Shown: positions 21,294 to 64,000 of the stretch, piece by piece | Position numbering within the stretch: position 1 is the stretch's first letter | Layout: each line of letters opens with the position of its first letter | Program-made: the position numbers and the translations under genes | Notes under the pieces: model-generated | Databases searched by the model: none | What the model was told of the DNA's origin: nothing | What the model saw: the letters and a program-made list of their open reading frames with translations, nothing else | Assembly: GCA_023957385.1 (NCBI GenBank) | Contig: JAMLGZ010000001.1 | Span: forward strand, 1,660,923-1,724,922 | Direction: 5' to 3' | Length of the DNA stretch: 64,000 nt | Source of the DNA: Brumimicrobium sp. | Lineage (GTDB): Bacteria > Bacteroidota > Bacteroidia > Flavobacteriales_D > Crocinitomicaceae

Positions 21294-21328
21294 TTGTGCG
21301 TCAGTTTAAAACAAACCATTCAAATAAT

Positions 21329-22198
21329 ATGAGCAAATACGGAGACATTCAATATTTAATAGACAGACCTGAACCAAGTGAAATCTTCCTTCGGGCAAGA
21401 CATATGGCAGGTGTTCAATTACAAGAACAATTTAGTGCTAACAACGACAAGACTGTCAACTCAAGTTATGACGGTTTCAAATGGATAAAAGCAGAATTGA
21501 CATACCCTTCATTTGACAACCTAACATTTGCTTATAAGAATTCAATTTTTTCAGTTGTCATTGAATTGATAGACGACAAAGGAAGTTCAATGACAAGACA
21601 ACAAAAAGACCGACTTTTGAAAGCTTGCGAAGAAAATAACTTAATTCCTTGCACTTTTAGACTTAAGTTCAGAGAAAAAACGGACAATTTTTTAGGAAAA
21701 CTGATTGATAATAAAGACCAGCTTGACTATGAGTTGACACCATTAGAACAAGGCTGGAACTTGTATGACGTAAAGACAAATCAAAAAGTAAATCCATTAA
21801 ATATTGCAAGTAATGAAAAGACAAGAATGTCAAAATGGGAATTAAGCAACTTTGCAATTCAAATTGTGAGAAATGATTTGGAAAAAGAAGGAAATGAAGT
21901 TTTGTCATTCTGCGACTTACCAGAAGTAAATCCACAAATTTGGTTTAAAAACAAAAAAGGTGAGACAGGTTGGGTAATTGTGAAACACATTAAAAATGAT
22001 AATGACTTGGACTACAGGGAATGGGTAGGTCTTGAAGATAAAAGTCCACAATTGAAACCTTTTGACGGATATTTTGCGTCTGTTCAAATAATTCCTTCAG
22101 TTGGCTGGAATGGAGTAACAGAATTCACTCCTGACTTATACAGAGGTGACGGAATGTATGTTAATTACAAGGGTCTTGAACGAATTTATGTGTCGTAA
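21329..22198 (+). CDS. C1 protein of unknown function (first gene)
   Basis: Start at 21329 (MSKYGDIQYL) is preferred; a GTG at 21296 would lie in the cassette's attachment sequence. The 289-residue soluble protein has no signal peptide or membrane helix. It is rich in charged residues and has short beta-prone parts (WNLYDVKTNQKVNPL, FDGYFASVQIIPSVGWNG). I do not recognise the family. As first gene of the array it is best placed to be expressed from the attI promoter. The second C1 gene starts 27 bp after it. Confidence 0.6.
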   Translation: MSKYGDIQYLIDRPEPSEIFLRARHMAGVQLQEQFSANNDKTVNSSYDGFKWIKAELTYPSFDNLTFAYKNSIFSVVIELIDDKGSSMTRQQKDRLLKACEENNLIPCTFRLKFREKTDNFLGKLIDNKDQLDYELTPLEQGWNLYDVKTNQKVNPLNIASNEKTRMSKWELSNFAIQIVRNDLEKEGNEVLSFCDLPEVNPQIWFKNKKGETGWVIVKHIKNDNDLDYREWVGLEDKSPQLKPFDGYFASVQIIPSVGWNGVTEFTPDLYRGDGMYVNYKGLERIYVS

Positions 22199-22225
22199 AA
22201 AAACAATTAAAATTAAAATATAAAT

Positions 22226-23125
22226 ATGGGATTATTAAACTTTTTTAGAAAACCAAAAAAAACTGAATTGCAAAATACAGTTGATGAGATTTATAAAGAT
22301 TTGTTTCCAAATGGAGAAAAAGATTTAAAAACTGGTATAGACTTTTTATTGCAATTAACAAGCAATAAACTCTCTTATACAGAAGCGAGATTAATATACA
22401 TTAAATCATTTTCTCTTTCTAAGATTTCTAAAGATTTTAGTATTGAAAGATTAACGCAACATTTAAACGGTCAACCAATCAATTATTTTTCAAAAAAACA
22501 GATTGAAGAGTATTTTGTATTTTTAATGAAGCAAAATGGTATAAATGTTCATTTATTGAGTAATGATGAATATTACGAAAAAATGTTTCAGTCTTTACTC
22601 GATGAGTTCAATTTTTTCTATCCAGAAATCGTAACTTTAAATACCTCTTTTGATTTTTTTACAGATAATGGCAAAGTTATAGTCCAAAAAGACAATCAAA
22701 TTGGTTTTATATCCTCTAATTCTTTTAATTGGCTTAGATACGTGTATAAGAATAACGATACATTACATAAAAAAATTATCACTTTATTTTCCGAAAAAAA
22801 TACAGGAAATTATTCTGAGCTTAAATCACAAATTTTAAAACAATTCCGCCATAAAGATAAAGATATAAACGCTTTTTTAGATAATGAAAAAAATACTATA
22901 GAATTATACAAGATACTTTCTGCTTATAATGTATTTATTGATAAATCAGTAAATAGTTTACTAAATGTTTATAAAAAAGATAAAATAAATGTTGAATTAG
23001 AAATTAGACAACTTAATAATAATTATTTACCATCAATACATATAAAAGATGCTTCTAATTTAAGTGTTTATGATATTTGCAGTATTTTTTTGAGAGATGT
23101 TCTTTCAGGGGAAAAGTTGCAATAA
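22226..23125 (+). CDS. C1 protein of unknown function (second gene)
   Basis: A 299-residue Lys/Asn-rich protein starting MGLLNFFRKPKK, without signal peptide. Residues 30-110 are predicted helical (LTSNKLSYTEARLIYIKSFSLSKI), the rest is mixed. No motif known to me. The codon use is very AT-rich, more so than its upstream partner. The stop lies 8 bp before attC1, as typical of cassette genes. It may work with the first C1 gene, but nothing in the sequence proves that. Confidence 0.6.
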   Translation: MGLLNFFRKPKKTELQNTVDEIYKDLFPNGEKDLKTGIDFLLQLTSNKLSYTEARLIYIKSFSLSKISKDFSIERLTQHLNGQPINYFSKKQIEEYFVFLMKQNGINVHLLSNDEYYEKMFQSLLDEFNFFYPEIVTLNTSFDFFTDNGKVIVQKDNQIGFISSNSFNWLRYVYKNNDTLHKKIITLFSEKNTGNYSELKSQILKQFRHKDKDINAFLDNEKNTIELYKILSAYNVFIDKSVNSLLNVYKKDKINVELEIRQLNNNYLPSIHIKDASNLSVYDICSIFLRDVLSGEKLQ

Positions 23126-23132
23126 AACCGAA

Positions 23133-23267
23133 CGCACAACATCAGTTTGGCAAAATGGCGGGTTCAGTGCTAAATTGAACATTCGGAATTCTAATAAACT
23201 TTAGTGCTAAATTGAAAGTTAGTGCTTCGATTTCCGCCACTTCGCCAAGCTGCAAAACGTTATCGGT
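23133..23267 (+). repeat. attC1
   Basis: R'' ACGCACAAC (23133-23141) is the reverse complement of the start of its own cassette C1, GTTGTGCGT at 21293. Inner arms CAGTTTGGC and GCCAAGCTG pair. R' is GTTATCGGT at 23259, which belongs to C2. About 135 bp. Confidence 0.9.
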
Positions 23268-23283
23268 TATTGAATTTAAAACC

Positions 23284-23994
23284 TCACAACATCAATTTCT
23301 TAATCGTATCAAATTCGTCACGAAAGGAATTACTTACCGTAAAATCTTTTTCACTGATGGAAAGACCGTTTGTAGTGTAGGAATCAATTTTTTTAATGTT
23401 GACGACTTGCGAGCGATTAATTTGTAAAAATAAGGACGGTGGAAAATAGTTTTTTATTTTTTTTAAGGTAATTAACGGAATGAGAGGTCTTCGTTGTCCT
23501 TCTAAATATATTTTCACATAATCTCCCATACTCTCTAAATAGATCACCTCTTGCGGTACTATTTTAACCTGTTCGGCTTCTACTTTGATGAAAAAAGGTT
23601 CGATATTTTGTGTCTGACTTCTTTGAAGTTGTATCGCTTTCTTCACCTTTTCCACAATCTCCAGAAAGTCCTTAAAACTAAATGGTTTCAACAAAAAGCC
23701 AATGGAATCAATCTGGTATTCTTTCATCGCATATTGGTTGTAGGCAGTTACGAAAACAACTGCGGGCTTCTCGCTAAATTGGTTAATGATTTTGCTAAAT
23801 TCTATTCCGTTTAAATGGGGCATTTCAATATCTAAAAATACACAGTCCACCTTTGTTTCTCCCAGAAATTGAAGTGCTTCTGAAACCGAGTAAAAAGTGC
23901 CTAGCAATTCAAAATAATCAACTCTTTCAATCGCTTTTTCAATCAATTCTAAAGCTAAGGGTTCATCGTCAATGGCGATACATTTTATTTTCAT
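23284..23994 (-). CDS. LytTR-family response regulator
   Basis: The 236-residue protein has an N-terminal receiver domain (acidic pair Asp9/Asp10 in AIDDEP, phospho-acceptor Asp in VFLDIEMP near 55, Lys in LLKPF near 104) and a C-terminal LytTR DNA-binding domain (about 135-236, VIYLESMGDYVKIYL, LQINRSQVVNIKKI). Such regulators turn on genes after phosphorylation by LytS-type kinases. Its start overlaps the kinase stop by 4 bp. The pair runs against the direction of the array, unusual for cassette genes, so it must carry its own promoter. Confidence 0.9.
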   Translation of the reverse strand: MKIKCIAIDDEPLALELIEKAIERVDYFELLGTFYSVSEALQFLGETKVDCVFLDIEMPHLNGIEFSKIINQFSEKPAVVFVTAYNQYAMKEYQIDSIGFLLKPFSFKDFLEIVEKVKKAIQLQRSQTQNIEPFFIKVEAEQVKIVPQEVIYLESMGDYVKIYLEGQRRPLIPLITLKKIKNYFPPSLFLQINRSQVVNIKKIDSYTTNGLSISEKDFTVSNSFRDEFDTIKKLML

Positions 23995-25043
23995 TTTAAA
24001 TTAATTTTTAAAGTCGTAATATACTTGCCACCTGTTTGAATTTGCTTCAAACTGTAGTTATCTCCATACAAAATATCCAGGCGTTTTTTCGTATTCTCAA
24101 TTCCTATACCTTTTGATTCATCTGTCCTTTCAAACCAATGGTTTTCTGTTTCTAAAACCAAGGTATTTCCCTTTATATACGTACCAATTTTGATAATACA
24201 ACCCTCTTCCGAACTAACCCCGTGTTTGAAACAATTTTCTATAAAAGTAAGCAGCAGCATGGGAGCTATTTTTGCCTCTAAATGAGGTGCAGTAATGGTA
24301 TATTCCAAGCTTACATTAGAAGATAAACGATGAGACATCAATTCTAAATAACTACGAATAAAATTCAATTCGTCATTTAAAGAAACAAAATCCTGATTTT
24401 CCTCATTCATCGCATAACGCATCATTTTGGAAAGTGTTAGGATGGCGTTTTGAGATTTTTCTACGTCTTTATGCGTCAGTGCGTAAATGGTGTTCAGGGT
24501 GTTAAAGAAAAAGTGAGGGTTGATTTGTGCTTTTAAATTACCCAATTCGGCTTTCGCTTTTAATTCTTGTAAAGCCAGTTTTTTACGTTCTTCTAAATTC
24601 CATTTTTTGATTAGAAAATTGGTAAATCCTACTCCCAAAACAATAGCGGTTACAAAGAAAACGTAATAATTGACATAGGACTTGTGTTCCGAAGCAATGA
24701 AGGTTTTTTCCGGATATAAACTATGGTACACTTTCTCTTGTAAATTGAGTGCGATTTCGGTTAAGCTCATCAACCCAATCACACTGCCCGAAATGGCTAA
24801 AAATAAGAAGATATAAGGCAAACTGATGGATTTTTTGACCGTTCTCGGTATCGCAACCCGAATGTTGAAATAATAAGCACCCAATAAAACAATAAAAAAC
24901 ACAAAGTGATAAATATGGTAAGCCACGGGAAGACGTGCAGGATAAAGTAAAGGTATTACAAAAAATAAGACAATGGCTAAAGTTAACCATCCCATAATCT
25001 CTAAACCATAATTTCTAACTGAGAATTGTTTCATTTTGTCCAT
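23991..25043 (-). CDS. LytS/YehU-type sensor histidine kinase
   Basis: The 350-residue membrane kinase has four transmembrane helices in residues 1-150, then the His_kinase domain with phospho-acceptor in QINPHFFFNTLNTI near 178 and a C-terminal ATPase domain (LLLTFIENCFKHGV near 265, GIGIENTKKRL near 320). It should phosphorylate the LytTR regulator encoded with it. The signal it senses is not shown. Both genes lie reversed in cassette C2; upstream on the other strand is the small membrane-protein gene 25185-25637, which may be its target. Confidence 0.9.
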   Translation of the reverse strand: MDKMKQFSVRNYGLEIMGWLTLAIVLFFVIPLLYPARLPVAYHIYHFVFFIVLLGAYYFNIRVAIPRTVKKSISLPYIFLFLAISGSVIGLMSLTEIALNLQEKVYHSLYPEKTFIASEHKSYVNYYVFFVTAIVLGVGFTNFLIKKWNLEERKKLALQELKAKAELGNLKAQINPHFFFNTLNTIYALTHKDVEKSQNAILTLSKMMRYAMNEENQDFVSLNDELNFIRSYLELMSHRLSSNVSLEYTITAPHLEAKIAPMLLLTFIENCFKHGVSSEEGCIIKIGTYIKGNTLVLETENHWFERTDESKGIGIENTKKRLDILYGDNYSLKQIQTGGKYITTLKINLK

Positions 25044-25184
25044 CAGAATTATTTACAAAGTAAACTGTTATTATAAAATCAAAAAATTAAATCATCGAGA
25101 AAAACTCTCACTTCACCGAATAAATTTTAAAATGCAAAATATTAGAACCAATTTTGACGTGTAATAATTAATAAAACTAAAAAT

Positions 25185-25637
25185 ATGAATGTAGCCATTA
25201 TCATTATGACCCTTGTTCTGATTATCACTCTTTTTTCGCCATTTGGAGTTTATTATGGTATAAAATTAGCCAAGAAAAAAGACTATCAATCCCATCGTAA
25301 AATTCAGAACATTATCTTTATTGTCTGTGTGGTGGGCGTTTTGGCTTTGGAAGGACTTATTAATTCTGCTGGTGGCTCTGGAAGCATCGCATCCGAAAGT
25401 GTGTATTACGATACTAAATTTTTTAAATACACCTTATTTTCTCATATTATTGTTGCTTTGTTGACTTATTTAATTTGGTTTGTTTTAATCGTTATTTCCA
25501 ACATCGGCTACCGCAAAAGTCTTCCCGGCAAATTGTCTAAATTTCATAAGAAAACAGGTATTCTTACTTTCGGAGGACTTGTATATACAGCGGTAACAGC
25601 ATTGATTGTCTATGTGATGAGTTTGAATTTAATTTAA
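25185..25637 (+). CDS. Four-helix membrane protein (DUF420-like)
   Basis: A 150-residue integral membrane protein with four predicted helices (about 3-24, 42-60, 80-103 and 122-145) and conserved-looking His residues between them (SHRKIQN near 36, HIIVALLTY near 88, FHKKTGIL near 118). This layout resembles DUF420/YozB-like proteins, a family that may bind haem or metal; the match is weak. It is divergent from the LytS gene in the same cassette, so regulation by that two-component pair is plausible. Confidence 0.55.
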   Translation: MNVAIIIMTLVLIITLFSPFGVYYGIKLAKKKDYQSHRKIQNIIFIVCVVGVLALEGLINSAGGSGSIASESVYYDTKFFKYTLFSHIIVALLTYLIWFVLIVISNIGYRKSLPGKLSKFHKKTGILTFGGLVYTAVTALIVYVMSLNLI

Positions 25638-25650
25638 AGAACTACAACAA

Positions 25651-25786
25651 ACCGATAACAAACGGTTTGCCAAAAGCGGCAATAACTACTTCGATTTAAA
25701 GATTTATGTTAAATTTGTAGTTCTTGCTTCGGGCGAAAATTTTACGTTAAAATGCCGCCTTCGGCAAGCCGTAAACCGTTAGCACC
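25651..25786 (+). repeat. attC2
   Basis: R'' ACCGATAAC (25651) is the reverse complement of the C2 start GTTATCGGT at 23259. Inner arms GGTTTGCC and GGCAAGCC, plus GCGGCA and TGCCGC, pair. R' GTTAGCACC at 25778 belongs to C3. Same sub-type as attC5, attC10 and attC11. Confidence 0.93.
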
Positions 25787-25817
25787 AATATTAACAGACG
25801 ACACGATATCGACAGAA

Positions 25818-26435
25818 GTGACTGAAATAAAATCAAATATCAAAACGACCATATTTCAAGCGAAAAAACTTTTTGACGAAGGCTATGAATTGGCGTTTCA
25901 GACAAAAAAGAAATTAAAACCTTGGGACAAAATTTTTGACTTGTGGAAAACCGCAGCTCTGGCAGGACATACAAGAGCACAATTCTATTTGGGAACTTGT
26001 TATGACTTTGGAAATGGTGTTGACAAAGACGTTTCAGAAGCATTTAATTGGTATTTGAAAGCTGCAAAAAAAGGAAAAATGGAAGCTCAATATAACATTG
26101 GCTTTTTTTACAAAGAAGGTGAATTAGTAAAACAAGATTATAAAAAAGCAGTTCATTGGTATTCACTTGCGGCAATTCAGGGTGACACTGAAGCTCAAAG
26201 GGATTTAGGTTATTGTTACTTTTATGGACAAGGTATAAAACAGGACCTTTCAAAAGCAATTTATTGGTATAAAAAGGCTGCTGGCAAAAATGATGACAAA
26301 GCTCTTTACAACTTAGGTTTGTGTTATGAATTTGGAGACGGAGTGACGAAATCAATTCGTTGGGCAAGACATTATTATTTAAAAGCGAGTAAACTTGGAC
26401 ACAGAAGAGCAACTAATAAGTTAAAGAAGTTATGA
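25818..26435 (+). CDS. Sel1-repeat (TPR-like) protein
   Basis: At least four Sel1-like repeats of 36 residues run from about residue 30 to the end (GHTRAQFYLGTCYDFGNG, GKMEAQYNIGFFYKEGE, GDTEAQRDLGYCYFYGQG, NDDKALYNLGLCYEFGDG), ending in a basic tail. Sel1 repeats form alpha-solenoids for protein binding, often in signalling or stress. No signal peptide. The start is uncertain: the cassette has no ATG early in this frame; GTG at 25818 lies inside it, while the longer reading would start at ATG 25752 within attC2 of the previous cassette. Confidence 0.75.
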   Translation: MTEIKSNIKTTIFQAKKLFDEGYELAFQTKKKLKPWDKIFDLWKTAALAGHTRAQFYLGTCYDFGNGVDKDVSEAFNWYLKAAKKGKMEAQYNIGFFYKEGELVKQDYKKAVHWYSLAAIQGDTEAQRDLGYCYFYGQGIKQDLSKAIYWYKKAAGKNDDKALYNLGLCYEFGDGVTKSIRWARHYYLKASKLGHRRATNKLKKL

Positions 26436-26455
26436 CAGTGGACAGAAGAAATACT

Positions 26456-26591
26456 GGTGCTAACAGCACCTACCCAAAAGGCGGGGTTTCGTGTTCCAAA
26501 GATAGTTTGGTGGTTAATCAAACATTAGATTTTCAAATCAAGTTTTGTGGTAAAAATCCCGCCCTTCGGGTAGCTGCAAACCGTTATGCGG
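26456..26591 (+). repeat. attC3
   Basis: R'' GGTGCTAAC (26456) is the reverse complement of the C3 start GTTAGCACC at 25778. Inner arms GCACCTACCC and GGGTAGCTGC pair, and GGCGGG pairs with CCCGCC. R' GTTATGCGG at 26583 belongs to C4. Confidence 0.92.
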
Positions 26592-26649
26592 CAGCTTAAA
26601 AGACGACACCAAACCAGAAAAATCATCTTGACAACCACCCGACTTTGAA

Positions 26650-27450
26650 CTACGAAGGATGAAATTTTTCAGGGACAACTTCCAGCATTTCCAAAAAACA
26701 GTTTACCCATTGACTTGGAGACAAACAAACAATTTGAGCATTAAGGTTTAAACCGAATTTTTCCGAAATTGACCTGACCTGACTTTTCCTGAAAATCGAC
26801 TTTAAAGCTGTTTTTACAGATAAATCAGGTTTCTCTAACAGACAGGAAATAAATGCTAAGTATTTGGCTTTAAACTTAAAATCAAAAAATAACTGTTTTC
26901 TTTTAATGTTTAACAGGGCTGATTTGACAGTTGGCGGTGGAAAGAAACTTTCAGGACCTACCTCATAGACAAGTTTCAAATCAAAAAAAGTATGATAGAA
27001 AACGGTATATGGATTGTAAAGCTTCCTCGAAAATAACTTTTGTGTAGGTTCTAACTGAAGGACAATGGAACCTCCCAGAAAATTTCCAAGACTCTCAAAC
27101 ATCAGGATTTTGAAAATATCGGAAGTAATGCCATAAGGAATATTTGACACCACTTTGAAAGGAAATTTCGGAACTGCAAAATTCCTAAAATCACAACCGA
27201 CAACTTGAACATTTCGGGCATCAGAAAATAATTTTCGTAAATGTTCAACCAAAGCTGTGTCGTTTTCAATAGCAACAACATTGTTGGCGATTTTTAATAA
27301 ATGAACAGTAAGAAACCCCTTGCCTGCCCCAATATCTAAAACCGTATCCTGATTACTTATATTTGCTTGTCTTATTGCATCTTTTATTAGCACTTTATCA
27401 ATAGTAAAGTGCTGACCCGTAAAACGAACGGGCAATTTCTTTTTTGTCAT
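26650..27450 (-). CDS. erm(F): 23S rRNA (adenine-2058-N6)-methyltransferase Erm(F)
   Basis: This 266-residue protein matches, as far as I can recall the sequence, the Erm(F) macrolide-lincosamide-streptogramin B resistance enzyme almost throughout. It differs at only a few sites, for example SFFPPP, RKQLFF, SCLLEK and WVNCFL. It methylates A2058 of 23S rRNA and blocks drug binding. SAM motif LDIGAGKGFLTVHL at about 39-52 and the catalytic NIPYGI near 104 are present, and length is full. It lies reversed in cassette C4, with about 300 bp before attC4 to hold its promoter. Erm(F) is known mainly from Bacteroidota transposons such as Tn4351; here no such transposon flanks it. Confidence 0.95.
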   Translation of the reverse strand: MTKKKLPVRFTGQHFTIDKVLIKDAIRQANISNQDTVLDIGAGKGFLTVHLLKIANNVVAIENDTALVEHLRKLFSDARNVQVVGCDFRNFAVPKFPFKVVSNIPYGITSDIFKILMFESLGNFLGGSIVLQLEPTQKLFSRKLYNPYTVFYHTFFDLKLVYEVGPESFFPPPTVKSALLNIKRKQLFFDFKFKAKYLAFISCLLEKPDLSVKTALKSIFRKSQVRSISEKFGLNLNAQIVCLSPSQWVNCFLEMLEVVPEKFHPS

Positions 27451-27743
27451 TAGTAACTTCTTACAGGTGAATACTTGAATTCAAATCGTGGAGAAGTGAA
27501 TAGACAGTATTACCCGACAGAGCAACTATGACAACGTAACGCCTTTACAAAAAAGTCGGTACACGAAACCCATAGACTAATTGTCTTGACCTAAAAGAGA
27601 TTGGAATTTTCAGGACTGCCTATCACTTAGATAGAAGTCCAAGGTCTGCTGAAATACATAATTCAAAAATTGAAATTGCTTGACTGCAAATTTAGTAACT
27701 TTGCTTGACAAATTAACGAGAAAGAAGAGAAAATGAAAACCGA
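27451..27743 (-). promoter_or_regulatory. Upstream region of erm(F)
   Basis: About 290 bp without a gene. On the minus strand TAAATTTG (plus 27686-27693) fits the Bacteroidota -7 box, with TTTG 14 bp before it, closer than usual. On the plus strand TAACTTTG (27696-27703) also fits and would read through attC4 into C5. No leader peptide for induction was recognised. Confidence 0.35.
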
Positions 27744-27880
27744 CCGCATAACATCACCTATACGCAAGCAGGGGTTTCGTGCTTCGTAGGACAGTTAAGT
27801 GGTAAATTTAAAGTTCAGTTCTTCGTAGGAAGTTCAGTGGTTAAAATCCCTGCCTGCGTATAGCTGAGAACCGTTGGCAG
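27744..27880 (+). repeat. attC4
   Basis: R'' CCGCATAAC (27744) is the reverse complement of the C4 start GTTATGCGG at 26583. Arms CTATACGCAAGCAGGG and CCCTGCCTGCGTATAG pair. R' GTTGGCAG at 27873 belongs to C5. Nearly identical to attC18. Confidence 0.93.
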
Positions 27881-27965
27881 CAAGGCTAACGGAATCGGCA
27901 AGAATAAACATTATGCCATAAATTAAAGTCCGTTTTGACTTGTTGCCGTAAATCGGTAACGGCAA

Positions 27966-29132
27966 ATGGCGGACAAAAAAGCAAAAAACAGTAATTTAAC
28001 AAAGGCGAAAAATGCAAAAAATGATGAGTTCTATACTCAATATCATGACATCGAAAAAGAAATAAATGCATATCTTGACTATGATGCAAATATATTTCGT
28101 GGTAAAACAATCTTATTACCTTGCGATGACCCTGAATGGAGCAATTTTACAAAATACTTCGCTCAAAATTTTGAGAATTTTGGAATAAAAAAATTGATTA
28201 GCACAAGCTACGCACCCGATAGCAAAAAATATAAAGGTGGATATCAACCAACCCTATTTGAGACTTCTGACCCAAAATTTGACGAAAAGAAAACAATTAC
28301 AAAAGGAAAAATATTTACACTTACTCACGATAAAACAGGAGATGGAATAATTGATATAGACGATTTAGAATGGAGCTATTTAAAAGGAGATGGCGATTTT
28401 AACAGTAAAGAGATTATTAAACTAAGAGACGAAGCTGATATCATTATAACTAATCCTCCCTTTTCTCTTTTTCGAGATTTTTTTGCGTGGATTGTTGAAG
28501 CTGAAAAGAAGTTCCTAATTATAGGAAATATCAATGCAATCACATATCGAGAGTTATTCCCTTTTATTCAACAAAATAAAGTATGGCTGGGTGCGACTAA
28601 TTTTAATACTGGAATGTATTTTAGAGTACCCAAAGATTTTAAATATGCTAAATCATATAAATTTGAGAAAGAGCAAAATGGGGAAAAAGTAAATCGTGTT
28701 CCTGGTGTTTGTTGGTTTACCAATATCGACCATGGAAGACGTCATCAACCTTTGCCTTTAATGACTATGAATGATAATTTAAGGTATAGTAAGCACAAAG
28801 AAATTAAGGGAAAAGAATATAGGAAATATGACAATTATGACGCCATTGATGTGCCATTTACGGACTCTATTCCAAGTGATTATGATGGAGTTATGGGTGT
28901 CCCTATCACTTTTATAGATAAATATTGTCCTGAGCAATTTGAAATTATTTGGAGAGGGGGAGATATTGAATGGGCTGAAAATGAGTGTGATTTTTTCACA
29001 CCTCCAAATATCGAGAGGGCTACTGAATATAAGAAACAGGATAAAACTTGGAGGATACAAAATCCCTATCTATTAACAAATGGAAAAGTAAAAACAGTTT
29101 ATCAACGAATTTTAATCAAAGCAAAAAGATGA
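27966..29132 (+). CDS. EcoRI-type adenine-specific DNA methyltransferase
   Basis: The 388-residue protein resembles M.EcoRI: an N-terminal segment [36 protein letters not shown] near 53, and the catalytic motif [11 protein letters not shown] near 160. These enzymes transfer a methyl group to the N6 of adenine. It is first of three genes in cassette C5. Its stop overlaps the start of the DUF262-HNH gene (ATGA), so the two are coupled like a modification-nuclease pair, although no EcoRI-type endonuclease is present. Target sequence unknown. Confidence 0.88.
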
Positions 29133-56220: not shown

Positions 56221-56574
56221 ATGGGACGTATTTGGAATGGCGAGAATGCCAAATTAAAACTAGATGAGCTTTATGTTCTTTCCGATGGTGAGAGAATAAA
56301 GCAAGCACAGATGATTCGAACTGACCTGAAAGCATGGGCGCTGGAAAACTTCTGTTTCTCTGATTTACAAAAAAGATGTTTAGAAAGTATTTCTGAAACT
56401 TATCTTGAAGAAGTCGGACAAATGATAGCAAGAGCTATCGAAAAAAGGTATCCTATAGAACTTGCTGTTACTGATGACACTTTGCCAGTAGCACAAAGAG
56501 TTAGAAAAGGCGGTGTAGATGTGGGATGGTCTAAGGATGGTGGATTTTATATTAGAATCTGGTTTGAATGGTAA
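56221..56574 (+). CDS. Small protein of unknown function (C16)
   Basis: Start 56221 (MGRIWNGENAKL) preferred over a TTG 10 codons upstream. The 117-residue soluble protein has a helical N-terminal half (LDELYVLSDGERIKQAQMIRTDL) and a C-terminal Trp-rich beta part (VGWSKDGGFYIRIWFEW). Family not recognised. It has its own terminator at 56592. Confidence 0.55.
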   Translation: MGRIWNGENAKLKLDELYVLSDGERIKQAQMIRTDLKAWALENFCFSDLQKRCLESISETYLEEVGQMIARAIEKRYPIELAVTDDTLPVAQRVRKGGVDVGWSKDGGFYIRIWFEW

Positions 56575-56591
56575 TTAATTTTAATTAAAGC

Positions 56592-56621
56592 ACAACAATC
56601 TCAAAATTGTTGTACTTTTTT
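56592..56621 (+). terminator. Intrinsic terminator inside C16
   Basis: Perfect 8-bp stem ACAACAAT / ATTGTTGT with a 6-nt loop, followed by ACTTTTTT. It separates the small C16 gene from the protease gene 13 bp further, which must have its own promoter or rely on readthrough. Confidence 0.8.
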
Positions 56622-56633
56622 ATTTGAATAATC

Positions 56634-57665
56634 ATGAAATATTTTATATCTTTTACCCTACTAATATTTACTTATTCTTTGAGTTTTAGTCAAAATAAGT
56701 ATAAAACAAGTTTTGAAACTAACAATGATACAACACTGATTATTTTAAAAGTAAATTTAGATGGTAATAACTATCGTTTTATTTTTGATACAGGTGCACA
56801 AATTAGTGTCATTTTCAATCAAAGTAATATTGACTTATCAAAATCAAGAACCGTGAAGGCTATTGACGTGTATGGTAAATCTTCTGATGTTTCTATAATT
56901 AGAAAAAAAATCACTATACCTTCGATTAAGGCAGCAAATAAAGGTTATTGTCTAATTATGAATAATAAGCCTGCTTTTATGGATTATCTGAATATTGACG
57001 GTATTATTGGCGCTGATTTAATAAACAAATATGATTGGAAAATTGACTTAAAGAAATTGGAAGTAATCCGTATAGATAAAAAGGATAAACCTAATTCTGA
57101 TAGCTTATTTACCATCCCCACTCATTACGAAAATGAACGCACTAGAGTAATTGATACTTATGTAATAAATAATGGAGATACTTCTTCTTACACTATTGAC
57201 ACAGGTGCAAGTTTAATTATAGCAACCTATAAACCTGATTCTTTAATCAAAACCAACCAAGCAAATATACTTCAATCATACACCTATAATTTCACTATAA
57301 CAAGTAGTTATCTTGAAGATACTTCATATATTAGCATGGAAAATATTAAAATAGGGGATCTTAATATTGAAGAAATTCCATTTTCAAATCGACGTAAAAT
57401 AGGTACTCATAACACTATTGGCTTGTCTTTTTTCAAACCCTTTGGAGAGTTTTATATTTTAAATTCTAATAATATTGTTCTAACTCCAAAAGTAGAAAAA
57501 TATCAATATTATTTCCCGAACTTCAAAATAATTAACGGTACAATAATGTCTCAATATCAAAAGATTAATGAACCAATATCTCCTTCTTATTTAGGAAAAA
57601 AAATTAATGAGTCAGACGAATTCAAAGTTACAGACATAAACGTTCCAATAACTAAATACAGATAA
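56634..57665 (+). CDS. Retropepsin-like aspartyl protease family protein (C16)
   Basis: A 343-residue secreted protein (signal ending near SLSFSQ) with two Asp-Thr-Gly motifs: FIFDTGAQ near 51 and YTIDTGAS near 188, i.e. two retropepsin-like lobes in one chain as in pepsin. GIIGADLINKYDWKID near 122 and GLSFFKPFG near 262 support this. It may cut or bind exported proteins; substrate unknown. Confidence 0.82.
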   Translation: MKYFISFTLLIFTYSLSFSQNKYKTSFETNNDTTLIILKVNLDGNNYRFIFDTGAQISVIFNQSNIDLSKSRTVKAIDVYGKSSDVSIIRKKITIPSIKAANKGYCLIMNNKPAFMDYLNIDGIIGADLINKYDWKIDLKKLEVIRIDKKDKPNSDSLFTIPTHYENERTRVIDTYVINNGDTSSYTIDTGASLIIATYKPDSLIKTNQANILQSYTYNFTITSSYLEDTSYISMENIKIGDLNIEEIPFSNRRKIGTHNTIGLSFFKPFGEFYILNSNNIVLTPKVEKYQYYFPNFKIINGTIMSQYQKINEPISPSYLGKKINESDEFKVTDINVPITKYR

Positions 57666-57672
57666 TAAGCCA

Positions 57673-57808
57673 GTGCATAACAAGTCATCTTGTGCAAGCT
57701 GGGTAAATCGCTTCGATTTACCATTTATCGAAAGAAAAATATTTGTATCTTCGTGTCTAAGTTTAACGTAAAGAGCCAGCCTGCACAAGGTGCCAAACCG
57801 TTATCGCT
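57673..57808 (+). repeat. attC16
   Basis: R'' GTGCATAAC (57673) is the reverse complement of the C16 start GTTATGCAC at 56130. Arms CTTGTGCAAGCTGG and CCAGCCTGCACAAGG pair. R' GTTATCGCT at 57800 belongs to C17. Confidence 0.93.
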
Positions 57809-57962
57809 CAGTGTAGGGTAAACATAGTTTAAGATTATCATTAATCAAATAAAAACAATACATTTGTTTGTAATTTTCATTGAAAATAATAATGAAAGAA
57901 GATGTGGAAAATTATTTAATCCACTGGTAAAATCAGAATTAACCCGACAACATAGATGAAGA

Positions 57963-59120
57963 ATGAAAAGGAAGACATTTAAAATAATATTAAGATTTTT
58001 TCTTATATCGGTTGCACTAATTTTAGTTGGCGGAATATCATATTATTATTTAGGTCGCCAATGTAACTGTTCTTGGGACTATAAAAAGATGAAAGAAAAA
58101 ATTGAATTAAATTATGCAGGATTTCACGATAAAATAGAGAATAGAGAAGATGAGTATAATAAATTAGTTGAAGAAATTGAAAAACAGACTAAAAACACAA
58201 CTGATTTTAAAAAATGTGATAAACTGTTAAAGGATTATATGTCATTTTTCAATGATAGACACATATATATGCAAGTCTCTGACCCTTCAACATTTAATAA
58301 GCCAGCTAAAACTCCGTCTTTTCAAAAAATAGATGATAACTTTTGTCTTTTAACGTTGCCTTCTTTCGCTACTGAAAATATAAATGGAAATAAAAATGCT
58401 GAAGAAATCGACAGTATTATTAATGCAAATCATAAAATAATTGTTACTACACCATTTTTGATTATTGACATAACAGGAAATGAAGGAGGCGTAGATTATG
58501 CTTATGATCCGATTCTGTCTTATATTTTTTCTAAAAAAACATATGCAATTGATGTTGCAGAATTTTGGTCTAGCGATGACAATATTGCTCGAATTGAAAA
58601 TATTTTAAAAATGCCGAATTTGCCAGAAGATACAAAACAACAACAACAAGCAATGCTAAAAGCAATGAAAGCAAATAAAGGTTCTTTTGTAAATCCATTT
58701 GGTGCAGATATTGTTAAAAATGAATTAGATACAATTTATCCAATACCTATACGAGTCGCCATTTTAACGGATGAAAAAAATGCAAGTAGTGCAGAACAAT
58801 TCTTACTTGAAGCGACATTAAGCGATAAGGTAATAACTTTTGGGACAGGAAATACATCAGGTACATTGGATTACTCCAATATATACTTTGAATTTTTACC
58901 ATCCTCGTATCATCATACAATATTTTCAAACATCGTTGGTTTTGATAGAGTTTACGGTCGGGCAATGGCAATACCAACTTCTCGTTCATTAAGAGTAAAA
59001 CAAGGAGAAAATTTTGATGAACACGGTTATACTCCTAATATTTTAATTCCAAAAAACACTAAAAATAAAATCGCATTTATCAAAGCGTATTTATTAAGCG
59101 AGAAAAAAGGAATTCATTGA
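57963..59120 (+). CDS. S41-family (C-terminal processing) peptidase (C17)
   Basis: A 385-residue protein with an N-terminal membrane anchor (FKIILRFFLISVALILVGGISYYYLG) and an S41 tail-specific protease domain: LLTLPSFATEN near 127, GNEGGVDYAYDP near 175, and the catalytic Ser in DEKNASSAEQFLLEA near 272. No PDZ domain is apparent. It probably degrades periplasmic proteins. Single gene of C17, with a 155-bp leader. Confidence 0.82.
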   Translation: MKRKTFKIILRFFLISVALILVGGISYYYLGRQCNCSWDYKKMKEKIELNYAGFHDKIENREDEYNKLVEEIEKQTKNTTDFKKCDKLLKDYMSFFNDRHIYMQVSDPSTFNKPAKTPSFQKIDDNFCLLTLPSFATENINGNKNAEEIDSIINANHKIIVTTPFLIIDITGNEGGVDYAYDPILSYIFSKKTYAIDVAEFWSSDDNIARIENILKMPNLPEDTKQQQQAMLKAMKANKGSFVNPFGADIVKNELDTIYPIPIRVAILTDEKNASSAEQFLLEATLSDKVITFGTGNTSGTLDYSNIYFEFLPSSYHHTIFSNIVGFDRVYGRAMAIPTSRSLRVKQGENFDEHGYTPNILIPKNTKNKIAFIKAYLLSEKKGIH

Positions 59121-59207
59121 TTCATTTTGATTTTTTATATGCTGTTTGTTAATAAAAAATGTAAATTAAATCTTTGTAGAATGTAACTTAAAAATGAAAA
59201 ACACCGA

Positions 59208-59343
59208 AGCGATAACCCGTGGTTCAGAGAAATGGCAAGATAAATGCTTCGTTTTGAAGATTGTCGAAAAAAAGAAATTTATGCTTCGTGCTTAAATTTA
59301 CTCTAAAAGTTGCCACTTCTCTGAGCCACCAGCCGTTATGCAC
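59208..59343 (+). repeat. attC17
   Basis: R'' AGCGATAAC (59208) is the reverse complement of the C17 start GTTATCGCT at 57800. Arms GTGGTTCAGAGAAATGGCA and TGCCACTTCTCTGAGCCAC pair. R' GTTATGCAC at 59335 belongs to C18. Confidence 0.93.
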
Positions 59344-59381
59344 AAGGTTAGACAACGCACGAATTAACAAAATAGCAATCA

Positions 59382-61139
59382 ATGAAAGAATTTTTTTGGA
59401 TATTACTTTTTTTCCTGGGTTTGAGTAAATCAATGCTTGGTCAAAATCAAATTGAGATAGAGGGTAAAATATTTGATAAGGAGACAAATGAACCTATTCC
59501 ATTCGCAAATATTTACAACAAAAGTTCAAAAAAAGGAACAATAAGTAATACAGGCGGTTATTTTAGAATTTTAATCAATGAAGTAACAGACACAATTACT
59601 ATTTCTTCCATTGGTTACAAGGAGCAAACTATAAAGATTAAAGCAGACAAAAAAAACTATCTTATTTTTCTAGAGGAAAACATTCTTTTATTAAACGAAA
59701 TAATAGTAACACCAAAAGACAATGCGTATTTGTTTGAACTAATACAAGCAAGCAAGAAATCTATTTCAAATATTGAAAGGAAATCGAAAGCGTACTACGA
59801 GTTAAAGAGTTTTGTAAATGACAGTCAAATAGAACTTGTAGAAGGTTATTACAACATTGACGTGAGGGGATATAAACTGATGAACATACATTTGAAGGCA
59901 GGAAGAATAGCTTTACGCCCTACTAGCAACCGTATTTTTGCTTCATTAGAAAGTTCAAGAGCATTACTTATGTTAAACATATTTGGAAAAAATGACCATT
60001 TCCCAACGAATCCAATGGAACTAACTAAATCGAAATTAAGGAAAAACTATTACCTTAATTTGGATAGTAAGTATCTTGACGAGGCTAATGACTCAATATA
60101 CATAATTGAATATAAGCCTAAAGACACAACAGGATTATTTTTTCATGGAAAACTATGGATTAATAAGACAAAGAATCATCTTCTAAAAATCACATTAAAT
60201 TGTGATAACACTTTAAAACATCCATTCTTGCCTTTATTTCCATCAGATAAAATTTCTAATGTCAGTTTATTCATAACTCAATCTTTCAATATGTCAAGTG
60301 GTCAAGTAGTATTTAAACACACCGACTTTATTTACAAAATTGATTATATAAGCAGAATTGGAAAAACGGAAGAGCAAAACTATACAATCCTGACTAATGC
60401 TGTTTTATATGCGTACGATTATGAGAACTCCTTTAACCTACCATCTTTTGATTTTAAAGATTTTAACATTGGCGACTATCGAAAAATAAACACAATGCCT
60501 TACAATGATTTCTTTTGGACTTACAATGATGAATATCGCATGAACGATAGTATCAATGCCAATCAACTTTTTTTTGCTGACAGTTCCTCCTTAACTAATA
60601 TAACCCTCTTCAAATCCAATAATATTTCAAAAAACGGTCTTTTTGAGCACCCTTACGTTAGTTGGTCAAAAAATAGGATAAAATTTCGTGAAATTTTGCA
60701 AGACACTTCTGTTATTAATGTAACAACTGGATTTAAGTCAGAACAATACAAACTTGTCGTTAAAATTTATTTTGACATTAATTCTTACAAAGATTCAACC
60801 CATATTATTACTTCCACAGTAATCGACCCCTATGAAAGTTTTTATCATCTTCCAATAGATAATCAAACTCATTGCTTTATAAATATTTACTTTGACCTAT
60901 GTGAAATTGCAAGACGAGAATTGGAAGAAAAATTAAAAGCCTCAAAAAACAATGTATATAGAGTAAAAGAAATTTATAACGACTTTATGAACCAGTTTGA
61001 AACTAAAAGAAATGAGTATCTAAAAGCTGTTGAGAGAGGGACAAATGAAAAAGAAATAATAAAATATAACAACATTGTATACGAAAAATTGGGGATAGAC
61101 AATATTGAATTATTTCAACCATACAAAAATGAAAAATAA
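59382..61139 (+). CDS. CarboxypepD_reg-like domain outer-membrane-associated protein (C18)
   Basis: A 585-residue exported protein (signal ending near MLGQN) whose first domain (about 24-105, EIEGKIFDKETNEPIPFANIYN) is the carboxypeptidase-regulatory-like beta-sandwich found at the start of many SusC/TonB-type proteins. The rest resembles the long 'carboxypeptidase-like regulatory' proteins of unknown role, with no TonB-barrel ending. It ends with a helical region (EELEEKLKASKNNVYRVKEI). Single gene of C18. Confidence 0.75.
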   Translation: MKEFFWILLFFLGLSKSMLGQNQIEIEGKIFDKETNEPIPFANIYNKSSKKGTISNTGGYFRILINEVTDTITISSIGYKEQTIKIKADKKNYLIFLEENILLLNEIIVTPKDNAYLFELIQASKKSISNIERKSKAYYELKSFVNDSQIELVEGYYNIDVRGYKLMNIHLKAGRIALRPTSNRIFASLESSRALLMLNIFGKNDHFPTNPMELTKSKLRKNYYLNLDSKYLDEANDSIYIIEYKPKDTTGLFFHGKLWINKTKNHLLKITLNCDNTLKHPFLPLFPSDKISNVSLFITQSFNMSSGQVVFKHTDFIYKIDYISRIGKTEEQNYTILTNAVLYAYDYENSFNLPSFDFKDFNIGDYRKINTMPYNDFFWTYNDEYRMNDSINANQLFFADSSSLTNITLFKSNNISKNGLFEHPYVSWSKNRIKFREILQDTSVINVTTGFKSEQYKLVVKIYFDINSYKDSTHIITSTVIDPYESFYHLPIDNQTHCFINIYFDLCEIARRELEEKLKASKNNVYRVKEIYNDFMNQFETKRNEYLKAVERGTNEKEIIKYNNIVYEKLGIDNIELFQPYKNEK

Positions 61140-61143
61140 CCCT

Positions 61144-61281
61144 GTGCATAACATCACCTATACGCAAGCAGGGGTTTCGTGCTTCGTAAGACAGGAAAGT
61201 GGTAGATTTAAAGTTCAGTTCTTCGTGGGAAGTTCAGTGGTTAAAATCCCTGCCTGCGTATAGCTGAGAACCGTTATGCCA
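61144..61281 (+). repeat. attC18
   Basis: R'' GTGCATAAC (61144) is the reverse complement of the C18 start GTTATGCAC at 59335. The inner part is almost the same as attC4. R' GTTATGCCA at 61273 belongs to C19. Confidence 0.93.
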
Positions 61282-61385
61282 AACCCATGTAAAAAGAAAC
61301 CATTGATTATAAGCGACTAAATATATCTTTAAGATAATCAGACAATTTGAATAAGATGATTTAAGGACAAAAGACTTGTTTTTAT

Positions 61386-61393
61386 TATCTTTG
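61386..61393 (+). promoter_or_regulatory. Promoter -7 box of C19
   Basis: TATCTTTG matches TAnnTTTG exactly and lies 20 bp before the ATG at 61413. No good -33 box is seen. It favours 61413 over the TTG at 61398 as the translation start. Confidence 0.45.
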
Positions 61394-61412
61394 GTATTTG
61401 AATAAGAATCAT

Positions 61413-63374
61413 ATGGAAGACATCTTAATAATAGTTGGTTTTTGTATTTTATTAATATATTTATTAATACTCTTAATATTTAAGGTTTTTCAATTTTTAA
61501 TTCGCTCAATAAATAAACTATTCAAAACAAGGAAGCCTATAAAAACACAGAAAGCGTTTTCAGATGTAAAAAAACACGATGTGAACAAAAGTCCAAAAAT
61601 AAAAACAAATATATCGTCATCAAATGTTAAAACAGCTGCTAAAGACGATTCTATTATTGATGTAACAGGACAATCCTATAAAATAAGTACAAGTAATAAT
61701 TTAAAGAAGTTTATAAATGGTATTCCTGTGTGGAAAACCCGCAATATTTCCTCTTATTCTGAAATCGAAAACGCAACAAATCAGCAAAAGAAATTTTACA
61801 AAATCTATAAAATTAATTTTTTAAATGACATATTCTTTGATTTGGAAGGAAATTCAAATTATGCTTTTATTTTGCTATTTGACATATTGGAAGAATTTGA
61901 AATTCATAAAAACATTAATTTATTGGAACATCGTCTTAAATCTTTAGGCGAGAATTACCCCGAAGTTAAAACATTTAGTACAATGTTTTTAAATGATGAA
62001 AAAAAGATTTTCTTTGAATCATCATCACAAGAGGAAAACACTGTTCAAAAACATTACTACAATGACAATAGATTAGGTAATAAATATAGACTTCAATTGG
62101 ATTTAAAAGATGATGAAATAACAATTTTAAATTCATTAGTTGACACCAATAATAAATTTAATTCAATACTATTCTGCGAATTTCAACTAGTAACTCTACT
62201 GTTAGGTTGTATTAAAGTACTCAAAGAAAGGTATGGAGTTGAGAAACTAACTAACATAATCGAGATTATTCTTGGTGAAGAACGCAATATAAACTTCAGA
62301 TTATACAGCAATACTTACAATATTAGCTCTAACAATGTTGTCTATCAATGTGTCTATAAAACTTGTGAAAATTCATTACGTGATTATTTCAAAGTTGGGA
62401 GAAAAAGTGACATACAATACTATTTAAAAACTAAAGAATCAGTTAATCTTTTTAATGAGAAAATATTAATCGTTATTCAGGATTTTATCGATTCAAGTAT
62501 TTCCGGAATTAAGGAAATAGACATTGAAAGTGAAATTGAAATAAATAACTATAGTCGGTCGAGATATAAACATAAGCTAAAACATTTATCCGATACTTTT
62601 CAGAAAACTAAATTACAAGACTACAAGAACGCTATTGAAAATTTAGCCAAAAGAAATCAAGGAAACCCTTATATTGAAAATATTTTCTACGAAGCTTCAA
62701 AGTTCATTTCTAAGTATGACAAATTAATGTCATTATCATTTTATGTTCAATATATTTATCATGATTTAGACTCTGACAATTTTGATAACAAACAACTAAC
62801 AAAAACTATCCAAAAAAGCCTTTTTAAAACCGATGAACAAATTCAGGATTTTAAGCAGATTATTAATGATTTAATTTTAGATAGAGATTTAGAAAAGGCA
62901 TTAAAATCTGTTACAAAAATTTATGAAGTAAAACGAAAAAAAATACAATTGGATAAAACCTCAATCAAAGAAGTACAACAACAATCTGCAGGAACGGTTG
63001 ACCTCCTAAATGAATATTTGCGTGATGACTTTGAAGAAGAAAACAATTCAATCCAGTCTCAAGAAATAAGCAATGATGAAATTATGATTGAATTAACTCA
63101 AAAGAAGGAAGAATCTCATCAATCGATGTTTTTGAATGAATTATCTTTAAATCCTACACAAATTTCTGTTTTAGGATTATTTCATAAAAACAACTTGTCG
63201 GTTCCTCAAATTGACATTGAAGATTTTGTAAAGACTAAAGGTTTTTTAAAAAATCAAGTTATTGATAGTATTAATGAAACTTGTTATGAAATTTTAGATG
63301 ATGTTTTAATCGAGGAAGAAGATGATTATTATACTATAATACCTGAATATTTTGAAAAAATAAAAGCAATATGA
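61413..63374 (+). CDS. TerB-N/TerB-C domain protein (C19)
   Basis: A protein of 653 residues with an N-terminal membrane helix (ILIIVGFCILLIYLLILLIF), a TerB-N-like domain (about 95-205, VWKTRNISSYSEIENATNQQ ... YAFILLFDILEEFE), a long helical middle and a C-terminal TerB-C-like domain (about 575-653, LNPTQISVLGLFHKN ... CYEILDDVLIEEEDDYY). Such proteins occur in operons with a BrxD-type ATPase and helicase genes, considered phage-defence related. Its stop overlaps the next start (ATGA). Confidence 0.75.
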   Translation: MEDILIIVGFCILLIYLLILLIFKVFQFLIRSINKLFKTRKPIKTQKAFSDVKKHDVNKSPKIKTNISSSNVKTAAKDDSIIDVTGQSYKISTSNNLKKFINGIPVWKTRNISSYSEIENATNQQKKFYKIYKINFLNDIFFDLEGNSNYAFILLFDILEEFEIHKNINLLEHRLKSLGENYPEVKTFSTMFLNDEKKIFFESSSQEENTVQKHYYNDNRLGNKYRLQLDLKDDEITILNSLVDTNNKFNSILFCEFQLVTLLLGCIKVLKERYGVEKLTNIIEIILGEERNINFRLYSNTYNISSNNVVYQCVYKTCENSLRDYFKVGRKSDIQYYLKTKESVNLFNEKILIVIQDFIDSSISGIKEIDIESEIEINNYSRSRYKHKLKHLSDTFQKTKLQDYKNAIENLAKRNQGNPYIENIFYEASKFISKYDKLMSLSFYVQYIYHDLDSDNFDNKQLTKTIQKSLFKTDEQIQDFKQIINDLILDRDLEKALKSVTKIYEVKRKKIQLDKTSIKEVQQQSAGTVDLLNEYLRDDFEEENNSIQSQEISNDEIMIELTQKKEESHQSMFLNELSLNPTQISVLGLFHKNNLSVPQIDIEDFVKTKGFLKNQVIDSINETCYEILDDVLIEEEDDYYTIIPEYFEKIKAI

Positions 63375-64000
63375 TGAACAATATAAAACCAAAAGAAGCA
63401 ACTTCTATAATCAATTCTTTAACTGGAGGAGTAGTACCGAAGATTGGCATTCAACACATAACAGTTGGACGTTCTGAGGAAATTAATGCAGTTATATCCG
63501 CATTAGAAGATGTAAAGAATGGTCATAGTATGGTGAAGTTCTGGATAGGTGATTTCGGTTCGGGCAAATCATTTATGCTTCACTTGCTTAATACCGTTGC
63601 GTTAAAACAAAAGTTTGTTGTTACTAATGCTGATTTTACACCCGATAATCGTTTGTACTCTAATGACGGAAAAGGAGTTGCTCTATATTCTGCAATAATG
63701 GATAATATTTCAATCCAAACAAAACCTGAAGGCGGTGCTTTACCTACTCTATTAGAAAAATGGATTGAACAAGTAATTACAAAGACGGCAGATGAAAACA
63801 ACATTTTATTTGTTGAAATCAGAAATGAGCAATATTTGAAACTCATTCAAAACAACATAATGAAAACTATAAACGAAATCACAGAAGTAGGTGGCTTCGA
63901 TTTTGGAACTGTTATTTTGAAATATTATGAAGGTTATATTATAGGAGATGAGCAGCTTAGACGGAATGCTTTAAAATGGTTAAAAGGTGAGTACAGTACA
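63371..64000 (+). CDS. BrxD/DUF2791-like P-loop ATPase (partial, C19)
   Basis: The first 210 residues of a protein that runs off the window. Walker A GDFGSGKS at 60-67, preceded by the typical IQHITVGRSEEI; this resembles the DUF2791/BrxD ATPase family of BREX-type defence systems. Translation is coupled to the TerB gene through ATGA. The remaining domains and any helicase partner lie beyond the right edge. Confidence 0.75.
   Translation, partial: MMNNIKPKEATSIINSLTGGVVPKIGIQHITVGRSEEINAVISALEDVKNGHSMVKFWIGDFGSGKSFMLHLLNTVALKQKFVVTNADFTPDNRLYSNDGKGVALYSAIMDNISIQTKPEGGALPTLLEKWIEQVITKTADENNILFVEIRNEQYLKLIQNNIMKTINEITEVGGFDFGTVILKYYEGYIIGDEQLRRNALKWLKGEYST

Follow-up and report, generated by a model that had tools for sequence, protein, structure and literature searches.

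IntegronFinder 2.0 reported one complete integron in the Bacteroidetes, that of Salinibacter ruber (PMC9024848), and Ghaly et al. name the Bacteroidota among the phyla with integrons (PMC9668308). In Riemerella anatipestifer, aph(3')-IVb is followed by an attC-like hairpin of 140 bp, and the mechanism has been called not fully elucidated (PMC13148043). As for the origin of integrons, it has been put as a chicken-and-egg problem whether the I2 helix of the IntI integrase was selected before the attC sites or attC before I2 (PMC4792948), and the lack of intermediates has been remarked on (eLife 2020, PMC7790495). In an integron-like subgroup of recombinases, the insertion has been described as incompletely conserved yet essential to the function of integrons (PMC8138268). 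Here we analyse a stretch of 64,000 nucleotides (the window) from the chromosome of Brumimicrobium sp. (Bacteroidota; assembly GCA_023957385.1, contig JAMLGZ010000001.1, positions 1,660,923 to 1,724,922, forward strand). From sequence comparisons, we consider it very probable that it carries an integron-type cassette array, likely captured and shuffled by a neighbouring tyrosine recombinase without I2. Among the titles and abstract openings of open-access papers (subscription papers and preprints not included), we found neither an I2-less recombinase with attC arrays nor erm(F) as an attC cassette.

Cassette ends and the own-start relation

We chained cassettes from position 21293 by the rule that a cassette begins with the reverse complement of its own R'' box. 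In all 18 complete cassettes between 21293 and 61272 the first 7–10 bases showed this relation, the lengths from C1 to C18 being 9, 10, 10, 9, 8, 7, 9, 7, 10, 9, 9, 7, 10, 10, 10, 9, 9, and 10 nt. The features of the window, with the own-start match given for each cassette, are as follows.

20136..21173, + strand: 345-aa tyrosine recombinase, probably an I2-less integron-type integrase, in the same direction as the cassettes (PF00589 134.9 bits; TIGR02249 208.3 bits, cut-off 265)
21208..21292, + strand: putative attI, dyads ending ATAAATAA, then GTT (aligned with 17 other integrase-adjacent sites; model R3 66.7 bits, the site being in the R3 training set)
21293..23258, + strand: cassette C1, two genes without assigned function; attC 23134-23265 (9 nt; 92.9% identical copy behind an orphan attI in genome G021)
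23259..25777, + strand: cassette C2, LytTR response regulator and His_kinase (both on the - strand), DUF420 (+); attC 25653-25784 (10 nt; Pfam)
25778..26582, + strand: cassette C3, Sel1-repeat protein; attC 26458-26589 (10 nt; Pfam)
26583..27872, + strand: cassette C4, erm(F) at 26650-27450 on the - strand; attC 27746-27879 (9 nt; NF012223 606.4 bits, cut-off 575)
27873..32375, + strand: cassette C5, EcoRI-type methylase, GmrSD/HNH nuclease, protein kinase; attC 32250-32382 (8 nt; Pfam, PADLOC)
32376..34847, + strand: C6, IS91-type unit with 283-aa tyrosine recombinase and 386-aa HUH transposase; attC-like end 34714-34854 (7 nt; NF033538 422.8 bits)
34848..36013, + strand: cassette C7, hydrolase-like protein; attC 35886-36020 (9 nt; weak DLH/esterase matches)
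36014..38485, + strand: C8, second IS91-type copy; attC-like end 38352-38492 (7 nt)
38486..40706, + strand: cassette C9, genes without assigned function; attC 40582-40713 (10 nt)
40707..48630, + strand: cassette C10 (9 nt; Pfam, PADLOC)
48631..49984, + strand: cassette C11, HEPN/Toprim-N protein; attC 49860-49991 (9 nt; Pfam)
49985..52456, + strand: C12, third IS91-type copy; attC-like end 52323-52463 (7 nt)
52457..53889, + strand: cassette C13, genes without assigned function and a DUF805 RNA at 52587-52655 (RF03081, 72.9 bits); attC 53767-53896 (10 nt; Rfam)
53890..54823, + strand: cassette C14; attC 54697-54830 (10 nt)
54824..56129, + strand: cassette C15, DUF4468 protein and one more; attC 56006-56136 (10 nt; Pfam)
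56130..57799, + strand: cassette C16, aspartyl-protease-like protein; attC 57675-57806 (9 nt; Pfam)
57800..59334, + strand: cassette C17, S41-peptidase-like protein; attC 59210-59341 (9 nt; Pfam)
59335..61272, + strand: cassette C18, CarboxypepD_reg-domain protein; attC 61146-61279 (10 nt; Pfam)
61273..64000, + strand: cassette C19, SngA-like gene, extending to window coordinate 67006; attC 66882-67014 (PADLOC SngA 134.8 bits; 9-nt own start)

The relation is specific to the two ends of one cassette. An R'' box matched the start of the next cassette by 3–7 bases, of which GTT by itself gives 3, and among the 324 nonself pairs of start and R'' box, 17 reached 7 and 2 reached 8 bases. The observed lengths sum to 162; when starts were shuffled among the R'' boxes, none of 100,000 permutations reached this sum, the maximum being 119. 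Because the neighbouring R' does not match, hairpins alone do not explain the relation. It spans up to 7.8 kb, in C10, from the start GTTGTAGGC at 40707 to R'' GCCTACAAC at 48506. The three 7-base cases, C6, C8, and C12, are near-identical IS91-type units of 2,472 bp, and their complements are thus not independent. Two joints were set by hand, the starts of C13 (52457; the script gave 52468) and C18 (59335; the script gave 59347), and the R'' box of C16 was assigned by order because C16 and C18 have the same start, GTTATGCACA.

An earlier note, made from the letters of the window, had claimed the 18-of-18 complementarity of 7–10 bases, quoted the C10 pair, and described sites of one orientation and about 135 bp in an array of at least 19 cassettes that goes on. 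Chaining and permutation bore out the first claim, and the C10 pair was quoted correctly. All window sites lie on the + strand and measure 130–141 bp from the R'' 7-mer to the R' 7-mer. Beyond the window, where C19 ends at 67006, model R2, for which the attC structure was set by hand and which is thus partly fitted to our reading, found six + strand sites, to about window coordinate 93,200. Five of these have the exact core, each with a 9–10-nt own start, while the sixth lacks the exact core. The array comprises about two dozen gene cassettes. In the 3.3-Mb genome as a whole, the window counted in, the R1 scan scored at least 59 sites at E ≤ 0.01 in several clusters, a lower bound as 150 of 2,305 first-look candidates were scored.

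A first hairpin scan was rejected as an attC finder because it was unspecific, with many sites inside genes, and chaining on the own-start complement was adopted for that reason. A general own-start detector gave 0–11 chance matches per shuffled window at 8 nt (20 shuffles) and served only to complement other evidence. For A1, RNAalifold gave only a 6-bp stem; in the integrated array, R'' faces the R' of the next cassette, and the two do not match. Rfam, run over the array, found the DUF805 RNA and no attC family. There is strong support for a large array of cassettes, each once a circle, in this Bacteroidota chromosome.

The recombinase and the folds of attC

The gene preceding the array encodes a recombinase without the 41-residue stretch of IntI that includes the I2 helix. 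Its match to the IntI profile TIGR02249 covers positions 2–179 and 240–315 only, and the IS91-type recombinases of the genome, which together with the window integrase are its top candidates, likewise cover 3–178 and 237–315 and skip 180–236. The alignment to VchIntIA (2a3v) breaks between IntI residues 181 and 247, which face 248 to 272 of the window recombinase. VchIntIA residues K209, Y210, W219, P232, H240, and H241 contact extrahelical bases (PMC3053210); all six fall in the alignment gap. The spacing between the GKxxKDR and HxLRH motifs is 66 in the window recombinase and 65–67 in 31 of 47 family sequences (no value for the other 16) and in five plasmid integrase copies or fragments, as against 107 in 28 of 30 IntI (no value for two; one further locus, L107, is without a protein). 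A search of phage records returned 1,047 records, all below 60% identity. Upstream of the integrase, the window has short tandem repeats of about 36–48 bp at 16574-17241 and 19855-19989.

In a tree of 79 sequences (45 family, 30 IntI, and 4 Xer), the IntI group together with support 1.0, and none of the family falls among them. The tree is a single FastTree run that includes only four Xer and a few duplicated records, and L063, a member of the family, lies outside the rest of it. As the node joining the family with IntI has a support of 0.31, we limit the claim to the absence of family members from the IntI clade. The tree is compatible with both an ancestral absence and a loss of I2 and does not decide between them. 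Judged by its sequence, then, the linked enzyme is not an IntI integrase with the I2 insert. Of the integron claimed in the earlier note, the large array of once-circular cassettes stands; the strict sense of the word does not, as the IntI cut-off is passed by none of the genes in this genome and the linked recombinase is without the IntI insert. The attI architecture, the further arrays headed by attI, the scarcity of extrahelical bases, and the assignment of C4 to erm(F) go beyond that note.

That cut-off also bears on the possibility that canonical IntI, acting in trans or since lost, built the arrays and the neighbouring recombinase is a bystander. Such enzymes do occur in the GTDB phylum Bacteroidota, where 84 of 296 sampled genomes had a gene over the TIGR02249 cut-off, and the G^TT cassette ends are those of canonical cassettes. 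However, all 19 candidates in this genome were scored and none passed, and among the 85 genomes with a listed IntI match, only one belongs to the class of the window.

The attC sites point the same way. Bottom-strand folds of most sites consist of an R stem of 9–12 bp, an asymmetric central spacer of usually 3–5 nt, and then an L stem. From 64 sites offered, we left out 8 without an own start in the sequence covered, 4 without a spacer-type fold, and, by subtraction, 12 without the exact AAC/GTT core. Among the 40 kept, four have an extrahelical base 5–16 bp past the spacer, while the same fold test found one to three extrahelical bases in 25 of 29 control sites, all verified by chaining and lying close to true IntI genes. 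A 1x1 mismatch 1–5 bp past the spacer showed the opposite distribution, with 28 of 40 array sites against 2 of 29 controls. The Fisher P values, 9e-11 and 9e-8, respectively, are nominal because the sites are related. The control sites came from five of the nine regions offered, their strands were chosen after inspecting the folds, and the control detector requires an ungapped stem match, which disfavours bulges. On plasmids, the attC sites of erm(F), tet(X2), and the dihydrofolate-reductase-family gene have no extrahelical base, and that of blaOXA-347 has one, 10 bp past the spacer. The sites thus have the central spacer of IntI-type attC and only rarely its extrahelical bases, which IntI uses, a further point against the canonical enzyme as builder. 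The absence of the protein insert and the rarity of its DNA partner go together.

Linkage of integrase, attI, and attC

Relatives of the recombinase were found at 24 loci, all labelled as Bacteroidota, and with 20 regions from relatives, these form a sample of 44 loci. R2 found 54 sites in 20 of them, all 54 on the integrase strand; without a duplicate record (L003) and a partial match inside the integrase gene (L004), 49 sites in 18 loci remained. Of the 47 sites with the exact core, 41 have a 9–10-nt own start within 9 kb upstream, and for the 30 sites with a preceding site detected, 21 match the start of that site by at least 7 bases and 2 match the following start. Arrays that follow the I2-less gene on its strand in 18 loci count against canonical IntI, and we regard that explanation as quite unlikely, though an IntI since lost may have acted. 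As a separate observation, the draft contigs L076, L079, L081-L085, L091, and L092 stop a few kilobases downstream of the integrase, as if array repeats had broken the assemblies.

The first cassette starts 91–139 bp past the integrase stop codon in the ten loci where it was mapped, and the attI between them, 3' of the integrase gene, has an architecture common to 18 aligned loci. The letters of its dyads vary and the pairing is kept: columns 44/75 and 43/76 pair in 89% of the 18 sequences, with four pair types. The last bases are nearly fixed as TATA, four variable bases, and then A followed by GTT. The site lies beside the integrase gene, as in IntI-type integrons, and its position and conservation suggest use as the insertion point.

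These features bear on a second alternative, in which host XerC/XerD moves the cassettes, as in CTX-phi and pdif modules. pdif modules are moved by the host XerC/XerD enzymes, and Xer enzymes likewise lack I2; because of this, the absence of I2 alone identifies nothing. The CTX-phi stem, too, has been described without extrahelical bases (PMC4792948). Here, however, the arrays are headed by a recombinase gene of their own next to a conserved attI, and the cassettes carry variable R boxes of 9–10 nt, not a fixed core, making action by the host enzymes very unlikely.

We trained an attI model, R3, on the 18 integrase-adjacent sites, including that of the window. Over the whole genome at E < 1e-7, it found the window site and two more, at contig C1:20691-20782 (61.6 bits) and C1:383348-383439 (53.7 bits); downstream of both, attC sites lie on the strand of the attI. 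Two weaker matches had E values of 1.9 and 3.7. At the former, an R'' box with a 9-nt own start lies about 0.8 kb on, and tblastn of the surrounding 39 kb found no array integrase. A further attI at L030 (10461-10552) is weak (24.6 bits, E 0.06), and the orphan attI of array C (L036) was assigned by eye, R3 giving no match. Of the 60 genomes of a family sample, the own genome counted, 17 had attI at E ≤ 1e-3 and eight had 3–5. For the 31 attI of ten genomes, the 8 kb downstream contained an attC of the same strand in 21 cases and one of the opposite strand in none, and an upstream attC of the same strand was present in 4; in this comparison, 150 attC candidates were scored per genome and the own genome entered with four attC only, all on the attI strand. 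Among the 26 attI away from an integrase, 18 have attC within 8 kb downstream. The one-contig genome G424 has one close integrase copy (59%; the second match 38%) that is followed by an array of about 110 kb; of its three additional attI, one lies within this array.

Cassette exchange, mechanism, and known systems

Cassette C4, whose antibiotic-resistance gene erm(F) is coded opposite to the cassette direction, recurs inside the chromosomal attC array of a genome from another family of the same order (G037), with 1236 of 1294 columns identical (95.5%). The 300-bp flanks are 26% and 27% identical, and the identity begins and ends at G^TT. A copy of C1, 92.9% identical, lies in a genome of another genus of the same family (G021), behind an orphan attI and with a different cassette next. 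On comparative evidence only, C4 and C1 appear to have been exchanged precisely at G^TT; the earlier note had named gains or losses with other breakpoints as what would tell against it, and both cassettes end at this joint. Separately, a metagenome-assembled genome of Cyclobacteriaceae (L017, 20065-20191) has an attC 97.6% identical to that of C4.

A plasmid search with C4 and 200 bp on each side (cassette at query 201–1490) matched 16 records. Five contain the whole cassette, 93.7–99.9% identical: Myroides albus (query 200–1493), Sphingobacterium faecium (199–1493, broken by an IS5 gene), Flagellimonas marinaquae (201–1497), and pRGF00034 and Parabacteroides faecis (both 201–1493). A second S. 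faecium record covers 246–1493, the match beginning at record position 1, and two Riemerella records cover 197–1493 and 199–1499, each in two pieces with 67% of the query. In six records, from Bacteroides, Riemerella, and Salmonella, the match has the same left edge (197–201) and ends inside C4 at 993–1117; one further Bacteroides record covers 197–1296, and one Acinetobacter record has the C4 attC only, behind estT. Among the five plasmid regions inspected around erm(F), only Parabacteroides and pRGF00034 have flanks in common; otherwise, the sequences outside G^TT differ. Whole-unit recurrence of erm(F) with identity ending at G^TT therefore argues that the units move as cassettes. A plasmid search with two window attC sites as queries gave no match.

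Three more plasmid genes passed the own-start test, tet(X2) with 10 nt, blaOXA-347 with 10 nt, and the dihydrofolate-reductase-family gene with 9 nt, and are cassettes by that test. For tet(X3) on pHH1107, unlike tet(X2) on pWB8, no matching own-start end was found downstream, and because of this mismatch, tpnF-tet(X3) is unproven as an array head. In that plasmid (L141, 6070-8091), tet(X3) is immediately preceded by a 221-aa integrase-family fragment annotated as TnpF. The start of tet(X3), GTTATGTGCC, is the same as that of the tet(X2) cassette on pWB8. Two other plasmids carry related genes. A Salmonella IncC plasmid (L142, 8019-8590), its host far outside the Bacteroidota, has the 3' part of a 76% identical integrase and then an attI-like site, adjoining mph(G)/mef(C) and an ISVsa3 element. 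The plasmid of Chryseobacterium sp. SNU WT5 (L095, 15989-29749) has a 59% identical integrase with six attC on its strand.

A subgroup of the IS91 family carries an upstream tyrosine recombinase. The genome has 12 full copies of such a unit and one left-end remnant. The full copies start with GTTGAAC and end in an attC-like hairpin; six follow an attC, one another copy, two an attI found with R3, and one an attI assigned by eye, while two lie elsewhere, one of these followed by AT, not TT. Their recombinase groups among the array integrases in the tree, and its gene overlaps that of the HUH transposase. We read them as cassettes with their own mobility genes; HUH-driven transposition into att joints could be an alternative. 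Similar units on a Chryseobacterium plasmid have the opposite orientation, with no GTTGAAC start in the 170 bases read. That ten of the 12 copies sit at an attC, an attI, or the end of another copy would fit a third explanation of the array, in which IS91-type elements spread hairpins that mimic cassettes. Yet only 3 of the 18 window units are of this type, the other 15 differing in contents and in start and R''. The element DNA matched 4 of 249 genomes, the own included and the other three at 67–68% over part only, and attC arrays are present in many more genomes. We consider this explanation extremely unlikely.

We thus favour an array worked by the I2-less enzyme, whose catalysis of capture we infer. 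The recombinase would cut between G and TT, and the folded bottom strand of a cassette attC would enter a double-stranded attI or another attC. The asymmetric central spacer, perhaps with the recurrent 1x1 mismatch, may select strand and half-site instead of extrahelical bases. The integrase may serve distant attI sites in trans, and the IS91-type units would be cassettes with their own same-family recombinase and a HUH transposase.

Several observations weigh against this reading. In the literature, cassette capture is held to require I2 (PMC7790495, with reference to Messier and Roy 2001). The lack of I2 is shared with Xer, and an extrahelical base is present in the four array sites and at blaOXA-347. 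R2 found no match at E ≤ 0.05 in 24 of the 44 integrase loci, several of them on contigs ending near the integrase, and for 8 of the 26 orphan attI, the search of the 8 kb downstream gave no attC. Several attI and attC matches occur in genomes G007 and G028 with only a 100-aa integrase piece or no close copy; these are perhaps decaying arrays. On the Flagellimonas marinaquae plasmid (L205, 5093-7297), a 44.5% identical integrase lies about 90 bp from the erm(F) cassette start and divergent from it, whereas the order in the window is codirectional.

If the window integrase moves cassettes, it exposes an overlooked branch of integrons. An I2-less lineage before real attC arrays would be a candidate intermediate or an independent solution, and the array system is a likely mechanism for the travel of erm(F), tet(X2), and blaOXA-347 among Bacteroidota. 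Further, we see an evenly balanced case for a surviving pre-I2 branch, in which I2-less recombinases would capture single-stranded folded cassettes without extrahelical bases, one integrase would serve scattered chromosomal attI platforms, and erm(F), tet(X2), and blaOXA-347 would owe their packaging and their dispersal among Bacteroidota to this hidden system. The findings suggest that searches requiring an IntI profile overlook such arrays.

With chromosomal IntI integrons (the Vibrio superintegron; IntI1, VchIntIA), the locus shares the R''-spacer-L''...L'-R' layout of attC, G^TT joints, R boxes that vary but match at both ends of a cassette, a long array, and an attI next to the integrase gene. 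It differs in that the recombinase falls outside the IntI clade and has no I2 insert, extrahelical bases are rare, the integrase gene runs towards attI, and extra attI lie away from the integrase. The Salinibacter ruber integron, compared by description only, comes from the same wider Bacteroidetes group but was found by IntegronFinder. With the IS91 subgroup, the window units share a HUH transposase (NF033538) and a tyrosine recombinase gene; they differ in starting and ending as cassettes, in lying mostly at attC and attI joints, and in a recombinase that groups among the array integrases in the tree. The aph(3')-IVb end of R. anatipestifer, also compared by description, is similar in its order, Flavobacteriales, and in homology-independent gene insertion with an attC-like hairpin, whereas the section describing it names no recombinase, attI, or own-start relation.

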